NCBI RefSeq assembly: GCF_001434115.1 | Contig: NZ_AZDW01000032.1 | Location: 81,033-145,032, forward strand | Origin: Levilactobacillus zymae DSM 19395 | Lineage (GTDB): Bacteria; Bacillota; Bacilli; Lactobacillales; Lactobacillaceae | DNA: 64,000 nt | Direction of reading: 5' to 3' | In this document: positions 3,997 to 33,725 of the stretch, piece by piece | Layout: each line of letters starts with the position of its first letter | Numbering within the stretch: position 1 is the first letter of the stretch | The notes under the pieces: model-generated | What the model saw: the letters and a program-made list of their open reading frames with translations, nothing else | The model's database searches: none | Told to the model about the DNA's origin: nothing | Made by a program: the position numbers and the translations under genes

Positions 3997-4011
3997 CAAT
4001 TGCTTGATAAG

Positions 4012-4083
4012 TCACCGTCCCTTCGCTGGAATTGTCCAGAGCAGGTTCAATGGGTTTGATCTCAGCCGTACGGGCACCCCAGT
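4012..4083 (-). promoter_or_regulatory. TPP riboswitch aptamer (THI element)
   Basis: On the minus strand the conserved blocks appear in order: GGGGTGCCC, GGCTGAGA, ACCC, TTGAACCTG, TCTGGA, AATTCCAGCGAAGGGA. These are the signature of the thiamine pyrophosphate riboswitch. It sits upstream of ykoEDC-tenA and is followed by a terminator. Confidence 0.95.
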
Positions 4084-4101
4084 CGGATTTAAATTACTCT
4101 T

Positions 4102-30761: not shown

Positions 30762-31532
30762 CTATTCGATTTCCGCAAAGAAACTGTAGAGTTTCTCGGT
30801 GGTCAGCGCGGCCTTTTCGGCTCCCGCCACGTCAAAGGTGATTTGGCCGTGGTGGAGGACAATCAGCCGGTTGCCGTAAGTCAGGGCATCTTCGAGGTGG
30901 TGGGTGATCATCAGACAGGTCAGGTTTTGGTCCTGTACCCGTTCGTTGGTCAGGTGCATTAGGTCCTGACTAGTTTGCGGGTCCAACGCGGCGGTGTGTT
31001 CGTCTAGTAACAACAGTTCCGGCCGCTTTAAGGTCGCCATCAAAAAGCTCAGGGCCTGACGTTGGCCCCCGGACAGGTTCCCCGTAGCGGTGGTTAGGCG
31101 TTGGTCCAAGCCGTTGTGCATGGTGGCCGTGATCTCCTTAAAGTGGGCCAGTTGTTTGTTGAGCCGTCGCGGCATGAGGCCGCGGCGTTGCCCGCGCCGT
31201 TCGGCCAGCAAGAGGTTCTCGGCCACGGTCATCCGTGGGGCGGTCCCCAACTTGGGGTCCTGGAAGACCCGGCTGAGAAAACGGGTCCGTTTTTCTACGG
31301 AATCGTGGGCGATGTCGCGGCCGTTCAGCAGGATCTGACCGCTATCGATCGTTAGGTCGCCCCCGATGGCGTTGAACAGGGTAGATTTCCCGGCCCCGTT
31401 CGAGCCCAATACCGTGATGAAGTCGCCGGCGTTGATGGTCAGGTTGAGGTGGTCTAAGATTTTGATTTCTTCGGGCGTGTGGCGGTTGACCTTGAGCACC
31501 ACGTCCTTGAGTTGTAATAATGGTTTAGTCAT
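30762..31532 (-). CDS. ABC transporter ATPase, TrpZ-like
   Basis: 256 residues. Walker A GSNGAGKST, Q-loop VFQDPKLG, signature LSGGQRQALS, Walker B LLLLDEHTAALDP and H-loop TCLMITHH. The DEH variant of Walker B is characteristic of this COG1101 group. It energises the membrane subunit at 31525, which it overlaps by 8 bases. The set resembles TrpXYZ of streptococci and lactobacilli, proposed tryptophan importers; the upstream leader with a Trp codon supports this. Confidence 0.88.
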   Translation of the reverse strand: MTKPLLQLKDVVLKVNRHTPEEIKILDHLNLTINAGDFITVLGSNGAGKSTLFNAIGGDLTIDSGQILLNGRDIAHDSVEKRTRFLSRVFQDPKLGTAPRMTVAENLLLAERRGQRRGLMPRRLNKQLAHFKEITATMHNGLDQRLTTATGNLSGGQRQALSFLMATLKRPELLLLDEHTAALDPQTSQDLMHLTNERVQDQNLTCLMITHHLEDALTYGNRLIVLHHGQITFDVAGAEKAALTTEKLYSFFAEIE

Positions 31533-32424
31533 TAGTATCTAACCCCCGTTTCAAGATGTGCTTGAAGTTGAAGGCCTGCTTGAAGACCGGCAGCATCATG
31601 CACAGCGCCAGGACGATGGCGGATAACAGGTTCAAGTCGTTGGCGTTGAACCCGAGCTTCAGCACGATCAGTAGGACGAACCGGTAGAGGATACTCCCCA
31701 AGGTCACGGCGACTAACCGTTGATTGAGGGTCAGGTCCCCAAACGCGACTTCCCCGATGATGATGGAGGCCAGGGCGATGACGATGATCCCAATCCCCAT
31801 GTTGACGTCGGCGTAGCCGTTGTTTTGGGCAACCAGGGCACCGCCGAAGGCAATCAGCCCGTTGGAGACCATCAGTCCCATGATCTTCATGTTGTCGGTG
31901 TTGATACCCAAAGAACGGGCCATGGTCTGGTTATCCCCGGTCGCGATGAACCCTTGGCCCAGCTGGGTTTGAAGGAAGTAGATCACGATGCCCGTGACCA
32001 CGACCATCACCAGCGTGCCCAGAAAGACGCTGTCGAAGTATTGCGGTAGGCCTTCCAGAAAGTGGTTCTTAAAGAGCGTGGCTTTCCCTAACAGGGAGAC
32101 GTTGGCCCGGCCCATGATCCGCAGGTTAACGGAGTAGCAGGCGGTCATGACTAAGATCCCGGCTAACAGGATGGGAATGTGGCCCTTGGTGTAGAGTAGT
32201 CCGGTGATCAAGCCGGCCAGGCTCCCCACGATAAAGGCTAATAACGTCGCAACGATCGGCGACATGCCGTTACTAATGGCGGCGACACAGGTGGCCGCGC
32301 CTAACGGGAAGGTGCCTTCGACCGTCATGTCGGCAAAATCGAGAATTCTAAAGGTGAGGAACAAGCCCACCCCGAGGACGGCCCACAGCAGGCCTTGTCC
32401 GATTGCAGATACCATTAAACTCAT
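31525..32424 (-). CDS. ABC transporter permease, TrpY-like
   Basis: 299 residues, about eight transmembrane helices, COG4120 branched-chain-permease-like family. The EAA-like cytoplasmic loop is near GDNQTMARSLGIN. It overlaps the binding-protein gene by four bases (ATGA) and the ATPase by eight, a tightly coupled operon. Confidence 0.88.
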   Translation of the reverse strand: MSLMVSAIGQGLLWAVLGVGLFLTFRILDFADMTVEGTFPLGAATCVAAISNGMSPIVATLLAFIVGSLAGLITGLLYTKGHIPILLAGILVMTACYSVNLRIMGRANVSLLGKATLFKNHFLEGLPQYFDSVFLGTLVMVVVTGIVIYFLQTQLGQGFIATGDNQTMARSLGINTDNMKIMGLMVSNGLIAFGGALVAQNNGYADVNMGIGIIVIALASIIIGEVAFGDLTLNQRLVAVTLGSILYRFVLLIVLKLGFNANDLNLLSAIVLALCMMLPVFKQAFNFKHILKRGLDTND

Positions 32425-33416
32425 TTAAAGACCTCCCCGTGTTGTTGGGCTTCCTTGACGACGTCACTGGGGAGCGTGATCCCCAGTTTCTTAGCGGCGG
32501 CTAAATTGATGGTCATTTCCCCGCGGCGTTCAAAGTGAATCGGCGTGGTGGCCGGGTTCTTGCCCCGCAGGATGGCGGCGGTCATCTTTCCGGTTTCTAC
32601 CCCCAGCTTGTACTGGTTGATACTAAGCGTGGCGAGCCCCCCGGCCTTGACCATGGTGTCGACGGCAGGGAACACGGGCACTTTCTTGGCGTTAGCCGTG
32701 GCGACCAACGTTTGCATGGCACTGGCCACGGTGTTGTCGGTCGGCACGTAGACCGCGTCGACTTGGGAGACCATCTGCTGGGCGACCTGGTTCAGGTCGT
32801 TGGTGTTGGCGATGGAGTAGGCCTTCAGCTTGACGTTGGCCTGCTTACAAATGGCCGCGAATTGGTGGTACTGGGCCGTGGCCGAATCGTCGGATGAGGT
32901 GTAGATGATGCCCAGCGTCTTCATATTCGGCATGATCTTTTGGATCAATTTCAATTGGGCCTTCAGAGGCGCTTGATCGGAGACCCCGGTGACGTTGGTG
33001 CCCGGCCGGGTGTTACTCTTGACCAGGTCGGCACCCTTGGGGTCGGTGATGGCCCCTAAGACCACCGGCGTGGTGCTCGAGGCGTTGGCTAACGCTTGGG
33101 CGGCCGGCGTGGCAATCCCAATCATGACGTTTGCGTGTTCGTTGACGAACCGCGCGCTCATGGTCTTTAGGTTGCTCTGATCGTTTTGCGCGTTTTGAAA
33201 ATCAATCTTGATGTTCTTGTTGACGTGGTAGCCTTCCTCGGCTAACCCGTGAATGATGCCCTTGTGAATGGCATCGAGTGCCGGGTGGGAGAGGAGCTGT
33301 AAGATCCCCACGGTCGGCGTGCCCGTCTTTTGGGCGTTTTGCTGGCGGTTTTCCTTAACGAAGGCAAATCCCAGGAAAATCAATATAATGGCAATTAATC
33401 CGTATAACCGTTTCAT
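32421..33416 (-). CDS. ABC transporter substrate-binding protein, TrpX-like
   Basis: 331 residues, COG2984 (ABC_sub_bind) family with two Rossmann-like lobes (VGILQLLSHPALD start, GVSDQAPLKAQLKLI middle). The N-terminus has a membrane segment (6-20) without a lipobox cysteine, so it stays tethered by an uncleaved anchor. The ATG at 33416 is nine bases after GAGG; an in-frame TTG at 33425 is too close to it. The gene is preceded by a terminator and leader peptide (see below). Tryptophan as substrate is inferred from family and leader. Confidence 0.87.
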   Translation of the reverse strand: MKRLYGLIAIILIFLGFAFVKENRQQNAQKTGTPTVGILQLLSHPALDAIHKGIIHGLAEEGYHVNKNIKIDFQNAQNDQSNLKTMSARFVNEHANVMIGIATPAAQALANASSTTPVVLGAITDPKGADLVKSNTRPGTNVTGVSDQAPLKAQLKLIQKIMPNMKTLGIIYTSSDDSATAQYHQFAAICKQANVKLKAYSIANTNDLNQVAQQMVSQVDAVYVPTDNTVASAMQTLVATANAKKVPVFPAVDTMVKAGGLATLSINQYKLGVETGKMTAAILRGKNPATTPIHFERRGEMTINLAAAKKLGITLPSDVVKEAQQHGEVFK

Positions 33417-33457
33417 CCTTCTCAACCTCGCTTTATGAAAGTTGGCTTTTTCCGACT

Positions 33458-33488
33458 AAAAAAGGGCACCCAGCCGCAGCGGGTACCC
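33458..33488 (-). terminator. attenuator terminator of the TrpXYZ-like operon
   Basis: Minus strand GGGTACCCGC / GGCTGGGTGCCC with a short loop, followed by six Ts, ending 42 bases before the first gene. The 5' arm (33479-33488) overlaps CCGCTG (33477-33482), which can instead pair with CAGCGG (33503-33508) to form an antiterminator. Confidence 0.82.
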
Positions 33489-33613
33489 CAAAAACTAGTG
33501 GGCCGCTGGCGGATAACTCATCCGTGCAGACCCTTTCCATCAGAAAGTTAGCCGGCGCAGATGCGAAGAGCACTCTGTGAGCTCAAGTCGCATCTACAGT
33601 GATGACGACTTGA
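33489..33613 (-). promoter_or_regulatory. leader region with mutually exclusive hairpins
   Basis: Directly after the leader-peptide stop, TCAAGTCG (33606-33613) can pair with CGACTTGA (33583-33590). Three bases of the latter are shared with AGATGCGA (33588-33595), which pairs perfectly with TCGCATCT (33559-33566). The two hairpins exclude each other. Further on, CTTTC-TGAT-GGAAAG and GGAT-GAGTT-ATCC hairpins precede the antiterminator strand. Confidence 0.65.
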
Positions 33614-33661
33614 TTACCGGCTTTGCCAACGTCCATTTAAGTTCTGAGTAGACATTTGCAT
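33614..33661 (-). CDS. 15-residue leader peptide with one Trp codon
   Basis: Translates as MQMSTQNLNGRWQSR and stops at TAA. A strong AAGGA lies seven bases before the ATG and a promoter 36 bases upstream. The stop codon abuts the first pairing strand of the leader RNA. The position, length and Trp codon (12th) fit a ribosome-mediated attenuator sensing charged tRNA-Trp or translation state. Confidence 0.6.
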   Translation of the reverse strand: MQMSTQNLNGRWQSR

Positions 33662-33696
33662 GTAACTTTCCTTCTTTCCGTATTCTGAATAAATTT

Positions 33697-33725
33697 AGTG
33701 TACGGCATTGCCCCGCACACGTCAA
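33697..33725 (-). promoter_or_regulatory. promoter of the TrpXYZ-like operon
   Basis: Minus strand TTGACG, 17-bp spacer, TACACT. It would give a leader of about 270 nt before the first gene. Confidence 0.8.

Follow-up and report, generated by a model that had tools for sequence, protein, structure and literature searches.

A candidate tryptophan-codon attenuator upstream of trpXYZ in Levilactobacillus zymae and related leaders with other sensor codons

The leader and its operon in L. zymae

The window, by which we mean the whole 64-kb stretch of Levilactobacillus zymae DSM 19395 that was analysed, carries an importer operon on its minus strand, and all features given below by coordinates alone lie on that strand. 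The first gene (32421..33416) encodes TrpX, the substrate-binding protein of a Trp ABC importer, with matches to PF04392 and to NF041285 (487 bits against a curated cut-off of 390). It is followed by a permease (31525..32424, PF02653) and an ATPase (30762..31532, PF00005) that are trpY-like and trpZ-like by position, in agreement with the TrpXYZ-like importer that an earlier, sequence-only reading had placed downstream of the leader. The nearest named loci for the binding protein are those of Levilactobacillus, with 98% for L. acidifarinae, and the protein is present in all 35 genomes of the genus set. A second binding-protein match, about 40% identical, occurs in 32 of these 35 genomes, mostly near the first and on the opposite strand, and has an internal stop in some of them; the genome of L. 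zymae and two others (G001 and G034) have a single match only.

The sequence-only reading had also described a promoter, a ribosome site, a 15-codon ORF, a stop codon abutting a pairing strand, several named pairings and a terminator with six Ts, and each of these was found where it had been placed. The promoter-like site, TTGACG-17-TACACT (33697..33725), agrees with the consensus at 9 of 12 positions in a consensus scan, a level at which about one site is expected by chance in the scanned stretch; a promoter-like site is also visible by eye in other Levilactobacillus leaders. A Shine-Dalgarno sequence, AAGGAAAG (33666..33673), precedes the leader peptide ORF, which is recognised from the sequence and from relatives and comprises the 15 codons of MQMSTQNLNGRWQSR and a stop (33614..33661). 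Its single Trp codon, UGG (33626..33628), is the putative sensor codon; it is kept in relatives and replaced by Tyr, Phe, Leu or His codons in others. The pairings TCAAGTCG:CGACTTGA and AGATGCGA:TCGCATCT are present in the leader, with TCAAGTCG adjoining the ORF stop.

Seen together with the tests described below, the leader can be divided into strands S1 to S7. S1 (AGCCGG, 33617..33622) lies within the ORF and, by folding and swap test, would pair with the 3' part of S4 when no ribosome is present. S2 (TCAAGTCGTCATC, 33601..33613) adjoins the stop codon and has S3 (33583..33597) as its predicted partner, on the evidence of swap test, covariation, spacing and folding. Swap tests, covariation and folding also support S3, S4 and S5: S3 would pair with S2 in a read-through state or with S4 in a termination state, S4 (33550..33567) with S3 in termination, with S5 as an antiterminator or, through its 3' part, with S1 in the ribosome-free RNA, and S5 (33519..33532) is both the antiterminator partner of S4 and the 5' side of hairpin 1. 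S6 (33500..33510), the 3' side of that hairpin, has S7 as a possible partner in swap tests. Hairpin 1 (33490..33533), seen by reading the sequence and in a swap test, resembles a terminator, with a paired region (33533-33500) followed by five bases and five Ts. S7 (33470..33489) forms the 5' arm and loop of terminator 2 (33458..33489), which carries the six Ts and was recognised both by reading and in a terminator scan; according to the S6:S7 swap test, it may enter a relay pairing with S6 (CAGCGG:CCGCTG). Three features go beyond the sequence-only reading: the S1:S4 pairing, hairpin 1 and the actual antiterminator, in which S4 (33567-33550) would pair with S5 (33532-33519).

Folding of the leader (33692-33425) gives -92.5 kcal/mol, compared with -76.3 +/- 4.8 for shuffled sequences (z -3.4; 0 of 200 as low). 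The terminator scan of both strands returned four terminator-like sites against 1.5 +/- 1.2 in shuffles, and hairpin 1 is not among them. At the gathering level, a TPP riboswitch at 4000-4091 on the minus strand is the only Rfam match in the window. When the leader was compared with all 4227 Rfam families at E up to 10, the only match was one below the cut-off, to a viral pseudoknot model (E 4.6). The leader-peptide families of Rfam, which we take to be those named Trp_leader and the like, gave no covariance-model match on the leader either at the gathering level or at E up to 10.

Leader ORFs and alternative helices in relatives

Of 79 loci encoding relatives of the binding protein, 75 carry an ORF upstream whose Trp codon is in the equivalent position, a count in which the invariance of Trp is partly a matter of ascertainment, as the leaders were found with patterns that hold TGG, 12 of them supplied by hand. 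One Enterococcus leader (L075) has a two-Trp form, WQNWRR, and was identified by eye, and no leader was found at three of the 79 loci (L077, L078 and L079). The ORF, whose loss in relatives would have spoken against the sequence-only reading, is thus kept at nearly all of these loci. The reading frame was also approached from the ribosome site, by way of the ATG that has the strongest Shine-Dalgarno sequence within 19-72 nt ahead of the Trp codon. This ATG shares the frame of the Trp codon in 154 of 163 leaders and lies in another frame in none, nine leaders having no such ATG. Among loci matched by the Rfam family RF04312 (see below), ORFs chosen by Shine-Dalgarno score alone contain a Trp codon in 85 of 89 cases, two more loci being without such an ORF and three (L141, L142 and L198) having been excluded beforehand. 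The four misses comprise one wrong pick, two Phe/Tyr leaders and one lost start codon. Two Trp codons are present in 55 of these 89 leaders. At the locus with the lost start codon (L189 in genome G239, near a contig start), the usual start codon is ATT, while the WQSW block and the RNA are intact.

The helices were examined by swap tests, in which strands taken from alignments were exchanged among one representative per 75% cluster (18 lactobacillus leaders and 53 RF04312-type leaders). For S2:S3, S3:S4, S4:S5, S5:S6 and S1:S4, the native duplex was stronger than all 2000 strand swaps in both sets, bearing in mind that the sequences are related and that permutation and shuffle counts are not independent events. 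As a control, S2:S4 gave 1923 and 308 of 2000 swaps as low in the 18- and 53-leader sets, respectively; a second control, S1:S2, gave 927 of 2000 in the lactobacillus set and 7 of 2000 in the RF04312-type set, although this pairing is not predicted. Covariation in a joint alignment of 58 sequences points the same way. In S3:S4 and S5:S6 taken together, 94.5% of cells are paired, with double changes at 16 of 18 pairs; in S2:S3, 91.7% are paired, with double changes at all six pairs. For S4:S5, 95.4% of cells are paired and 4 of 6 pairs have double changes, a number of pairs that was reached by 69 of 500 shuffles and a number of cells that was reached by none. Slid controls had 17.5-69.8% of cells paired. 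Compensatory pairing in relatives, suggested earlier as a check, is therefore present as double changes in the helices.

S2:S3 and S3:S4 cannot form together, nor can S4:S5 coexist with either S3:S4 or S5:S6, as an attenuator requires; S4:S5 and S5:S6 would in this way represent a mutually exclusive antiterminator and terminator, both of which covary. By comparison with relatives, the conserved parts of the predicted element are the leader ORF in its reading frame, its Trp codon, the set of alternative helices and a fixed distance between that codon and S2.

The CAGCGG:CCGCTG pairing had been proposed in the sequence-only reading as the antiterminator. The pairing itself finds support: in the 18 lactobacillus representatives, native S6:S7 duplexes have -11.87 kcal/mol against -8.30 +/- 0.60 for swapped strands (0 of 2000 as low), and seven controls (S1 to S5 with S7, and two with a reversed strand) gave 428-1383 of 2000. 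Its assignment as the main antiterminator did not hold, and the pairing appears instead to be a relay from hairpin 1 to terminator 2, with S6 possibly opening the latter through S7. In four leaders from Lentilactobacillus and a related assembly (L039, L048, L052 and L056), no T-run follows hairpin 1, so that the decision would pass to terminator 2. In lactobacilli, S6:S7 is probably a second layer that relays the decision to the distal terminator.

Where the ribosome would stall can be judged from spacing. Across 153 distinct leaders, S2 begins 14-21 nt after the first nucleotide of the Trp codon, and the stop codon follows the Trp codon by anything from 9 to 33 nt, falling inside S2 in some leaders. 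The peptide tail after Trp varies too, with forms such as WQSR, WQFR, WHIR, WQSQH, WQS, WQNWRR and WNSWRRSLYR. A fixed distance from Trp to S2 combined with a wandering stop favours stalling at the Trp codon over TnaC-like stalling at the stop codon; the sequence-only reading had regarded both as possible, and the fixed spacing, the variable tail and the exchange of codons with the downstream gene retain the former and argue against the latter.

Folding with a ribosome placed on the leader, another check suggested earlier, gave a similar picture. In these calculations, the RNA was folded up to S5 with the ribosome-covered part removed, the ribosome edge of 13 nt being a hand-set assumption and kinetics lying outside the model. 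For the L. zymae leader, the expected number of S4:S5 pairs is 4.6 in the free RNA, 11.5 with a ribosome at Trp and 5.1 with a ribosome at the stop, and the corresponding numbers for S3:S4 are 1.3, 0.2 and 10.0. S4:S5 is thereby favoured at the Trp stall and S3:S4 at the stop. Across the leaders folded in this way, S4:S5 is higher for the Trp stall than for the stop in 54 of 66 and 82 of 87 cases (12 of 66 and 5 of 87 fail) and higher than in the free RNA in 53 of 66 and 76 of 87; S3:S4 is higher at the stop than at the Trp stall in 59 of 66 and 83 of 87.

Relation to RF04312 and exchange of the sensor codon

A kinship to the Rfam family RF04312 (the trpB motif, SRC-39-1) is an addition to the sequence-only reading. 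RF04312 has been described as a strong riboswitch candidate with more than 900 members in Firmicutes and Fusobacteria, and its description leaves room for a protein factor or a classic attenuator (PMC11109978). It lies mostly upstream of an amino-acid-type ABC transporter and sometimes upstream of trpB. With the element described here it shares the S3:S4 stem, the terminator S5:S6 and an antiterminator in the right shoulder of the first stem. The L. zymae leader has no RF04312 match at the gathering level or at E up to 10, and its link to the family runs through intermediates. Two of the relatives' leaders, L065 (60.1 bits) and L075 (62.6 bits), exceed the gathering cut-off of 59 bits. A joint alignment of lactobacillus leaders and RF04312 matches covaries, with related S3:S4 stems and terminators, and the model built from it (R1) finds the L. 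zymae leader at E 4.1e-6, a close relative (L001) being among its 58 rows. Judged from its sequence, the L. zymae element is a lactobacillus relative of RF04312. The Rfam model starts in S3, and the ORF, the sensor codons, S1 and S2 lie outside it.

At E up to 1e-3, RF04312 matches 210 of 395 Lactobacillales genomes, 59 of them over the cut-off, and no Levilactobacillus genome is among the matches listed in that search. Phylum-wide, 4 of 398 genomes have a match at the same threshold, two of the matches (L141 and L142) being rejected as not this element. We inspected 93 matches, namely 30 and 60 of the Lactobacillales matches listed and three from the phylum-wide search: 88 have a Trp block just upstream (including L189, with its lost start codon), two have a Phe/Tyr block (L140 and L202) and three have no leader (L141, L142 and L198).

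Because model R1 starts only 12 nt downstream of the Trp codon's first base, it does not select for the sensor codon. At E up to 0.01, it finds 107 of 151 Lactobacillaceae genomes, with a single match in that of L. zymae, to the leader described here; in the order of G780, 39 of 194 genomes, all listed in one family (f143); in the family of G157, 21 of 27 genomes; and phylum-wide, 5 of 398 genomes, two of which (G476 and G492) were false by eye. In the order of G780, 59 of the 61 inspected among 64 matches listed have leader blocks such as FFFSYFR, YYYNYYR, LLLLANLR and HHHR, none with Trp in the block, and two (L311 and L312) have no leader. Among 29 inspected of 132 Lactobacillaceae matches listed, picked as second copies and weak matches, 12 have Trp, eight Tyr or Tyr/Phe, one Phe, four RLRSR and four no leader. 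In the family of G157, 12 of 29 loci were inspected, the other 17 being mostly at places already matched by RF04312, and three have Trp, seven Phe/Tyr, one Tyr and one no leader.

Taking all sets together, and after dropping 12 loci with an identical peptide and an identical start of the downstream protein, there are 259 distinct loci: 170 with Trp, 34 with Phe (and Tyr), 29 with Tyr, eight with Leu, four with His, four with Arg/Leu and 10 with none. Merging identical 80-mers leaves 253 loci and 164 with Trp, the other classes being unchanged. Nine leader ORFs in these sets were assigned by reading (L125, L200, L201, L193, L189, L285, L335, L271 and L281), and four loci of the class 'other' were reassigned by hand (L230, L304 and L305 to His, L280 to none). 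Of the 10 leaderless loci, L198 is a model match at E 9.6e-6 and the others do no better than E 2e-4.

In 79 non-Trp leaders, the commonest residue occurs on average 3.8 times in the last eight positions and 2.3 times in the first eight (more often in 57 leaders, less often in two), a count that names no residue while the selection of non-Trp leaders does use the classes. Densities in the last eight residues are 59% against 6% for Tyr or Phe in the Tyr class and 62% against 4% for Leu in the Leu class, values that are partly circular since classes were assigned from the last 12 residues. The S2:S3 helix is found in non-Trp leaders too: in 44 representatives of 69 leaders, nine of 78 having been excluded because S3 was not found by pattern, native duplexes have -16.49 kcal/mol against -11.25 +/- 0.43 (0 of 2000 as low), with a wide S2 window. 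In the RLRSR leaders (L314-L317), Leu (CTG) and Arg (CGA) codons stand where Trp and Gln stood; these leaders perhaps sense Arg or Leu. One genome, G842, carries three of them (L314, L315 and L316) beside a Trp leader (L313).

The sensor codon appears to follow the gene behind the leader. Downstream genes were assigned by similarity to seed proteins, 20 proteins being checked against NCBIfam. All six trpB genes lie behind Trp leaders (four were scored, all over the TIGR00263 cut-off), and all four His leaders stand before his-type genes, namely three hisS genes, of which the two scored exceed the TIGR00442 cut-off, and a hisZ-like one (L230, 218 bits, below the cut-off of 272). Three of three fusions of a substrate-binding protein and a permease lie behind RLRSR leaders, and the fourth RLRSR leader precedes an Opp protein. 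The sodium-symporter family, with 43 loci, has eight Leu, 17 Phe, 18 Tyr and no Trp leaders. Over 232 loci, with kinship ignored, the mutual information between codon class and gene is 0.53 nats, compared with 0.05 for label shuffles (0 of 1000 as high). Four TrpX-like proteins behind Tyr or Phe leaders score 316-343 bits, below the TrpX cut-off of 390, TrpX of L. zymae being the only protein behind a Trp leader that was scored with NF041285.

A quick tree of 100 TrpX-like proteins, reduced from 174 by thinning the Trp class, with L247 on a very long branch and seven rows flagged for unusual composition, holds the 84 Trp rows together on the same side of a branch (support 98) and the seven Tyr rows likewise (support 95), while nine Phe rows need two changes. 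The three labels together need two changes, the minimum, which none of 200 shuffles reached. In genome G198, Trp (L323), Phe (L322) and Tyr (L324) leaders each precede their own TrpX-like protein. From these comparisons, codon identity is seen to track the gene that the leader would control.

A few Trp-type leaders have other genes, or none, behind them. L113 and L144 (genomes G050 and G065), with WQNWHR and WQNWQI, have no ORF of at least 80 aa behind them in the stretch examined and look like orphan leaders after gene loss; a similar leader, L117 in G073, precedes trpB. The first ORF behind L110 in genome G098 resembles what we take to be a group II intron reverse transcriptase. An Opp-type oligopeptide-binding protein lies behind the Trp leader RWQSH of L158 (genome G379), where peptides are perhaps a source of Trp.

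Proposed mechanism and competing explanations

We consider it very probable, at roughly 0.92, that the L. zymae leader is a ribosome-mediated transcription attenuator sensing charged tRNA-Trp, a reading based on a putatively translated leader ORF with its ribosome site, on a predicted sensor codon for the amino acid of the controlled operon (a Trp codon before a TrpX-type importer) and on the alternative helices. Control by translation of a leader peptide, proposed in the sequence-only reading, is to this extent largely supported. We infer stalling, the order of events and the sign (on at low Trp) to be as follows. When Trp is short, the ribosome would stall when the UGG codon, 15 nt ahead of S2, is in its A site, covering S1 and leaving S2 free; S2 would then pair with S3, release S4 and allow the S4:S5 antiterminator to form. 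This would block hairpin 1 and leave S6 free to invade terminator 2 via S7, so that RNA polymerase may read into trpXYZ. When Trp is plentiful, the ribosome would reach the stop codon and cover S2, S3 would pair with S4, and S5:S6 and terminator 2 would end transcription. If the leader is not translated, S1 may hold S4, and termination would be favoured too. A point against an attenuator is that a single Trp codon is little for a strong stall.

In trp and his attenuators of the E. coli trpL type, the ORF contains codons for the regulated amino acid, and a stalled ribosome chooses between antiterminator and terminator. The element proposed here differs in having six strands rather than four, with S2:S3 keeping S3 from S4, in its relay to a second terminator in lactobacilli and in codons that can be exchanged on one related RNA. 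Runs of His codons have been reported in leader peptides of Bacillota his operons, hisS and hisZ, Peptostreptococcaceae included; in the available parts of these reports, such leaders are described for His and are not connected with RF04312 or with Trp, Tyr, Phe or Leu versions (PMC9413887, PMC2965389). Candidate upstream ORFs with Cys or Phe codons have been noted in other groups (PMC8632094). Within open-licence PubMed Central, we found no paper naming RF04312, 'trpB motif' together with ncRNA solely in PMC11109978, and none that joins the His or upstream ORF leaders with RF04312 or describes Tyr, Phe or Leu versions.

Together with the relatives that its model misses, RF04312 likely constitutes one framework of ribosome-read attenuators rather than riboswitches, in which the codon block (Trp, Tyr, Phe, Leu, His and perhaps Arg) is exchanged and the RNA switch is kept. 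Besides Lactobacillales, the framework would include at least one other family of the phylum (f143). If true, this would be a peptide-leader counterpart of the T-box, and an orphan riboswitch candidate would be explained as a leader-peptide attenuator, ending the search for its ligand. The sensor codons would suggest substrates for uncharacterised transporters, among them sodium symporters, BrnQ-like carriers and TrpX-like proteins, as well as leader-peptide sensing as a sizeable system beside the T-box in Bacillota. The three paralogous importers of G198, behind the same kind of switch with Trp, Tyr and Phe codons, may serve as a natural experiment.

The published classification of RF04312 is that of a strong riboswitch candidate for an amino-acid-related ligand (PMC11109978). 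In its favour are the structure and covariation of the element, its location in the 5' UTR of an amino-acid-type transporter, and the scores of L065 and L075 above the family's cut-off. A metabolite-binding RNA with an incidental ORF seems very unlikely to us, however, as in 90 of the 93 matches (L189 included) an ORF carrying a Trp or Phe/Tyr block runs up to the motif, the sensor codons vary with the downstream gene on a constant RNA, and S1 and S2 covary although they lie outside the Rfam model. The authors of RF04312 themselves left a classic attenuator possible (PMC11109978). Arrest at the stop codon is an idea that the sequence-only reading had named, and it is suggested by the single Trp codon of the L. 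zymae leader and by Trp standing near the peptide end in relatives. In TnaC, a short leader peptide containing Trp, free Trp is sensed by arrest of the nascent chain. A TnaC-like arrest by free Trp and the nascent peptide has little to recommend it here, given that neither a conserved tail nor a conserved stop-codon position was found in the relatives' leaders, in which the Trp-to-S2 spacing is constant, that Tyr, Phe, Leu and His codons occur on the same framework, and that a ribosome at the stop would cover S2 and, in folding, favour S3:S4, the terminating state.

Attenuation by a ribosome reading the sensor codon also accounts better for the leaders than a protein, TRAP-like or other, that binds the RNA and decides termination. 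Such a factor was left possible by the RF04312 authors (PMC11109978); it is highly improbable in view of the conserved reading frame and codon identity, and the Tyr, Leu and His versions are not easily explained by it. A diverged T-box, finally, has a precedent in Streptococcus suis, where trpXYZ serves Trp uptake and is induced by Trp limitation via a T-box with a UGG specifier (PMC9382623). The two systems share the type of operon, the Trp-limitation signal and a choice between terminator and antiterminator, but the S. suis RNA binds tRNA directly, and the available excerpt mentions no leader ORF (PMC9382623). A T-box is also present at the locus of a distant relative (L077). For the L. zymae leader, this identity is extremely improbable: the sequence-only reading had counted a T-box hit as evidence against it, and cmscan with RF00230 gave no match on the leader even at E up to 10, while the ORF led by a Shine-Dalgarno sequence and the helices account for the region. 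We rejected T-box identity as far as the Rfam model reaches. The L077 T-box lies at L077:2307-2551, before a TrpX-like protein in a Christensenella assembly, and by the GAA-NNN convention its specifier is presumably UAC (Tyr).
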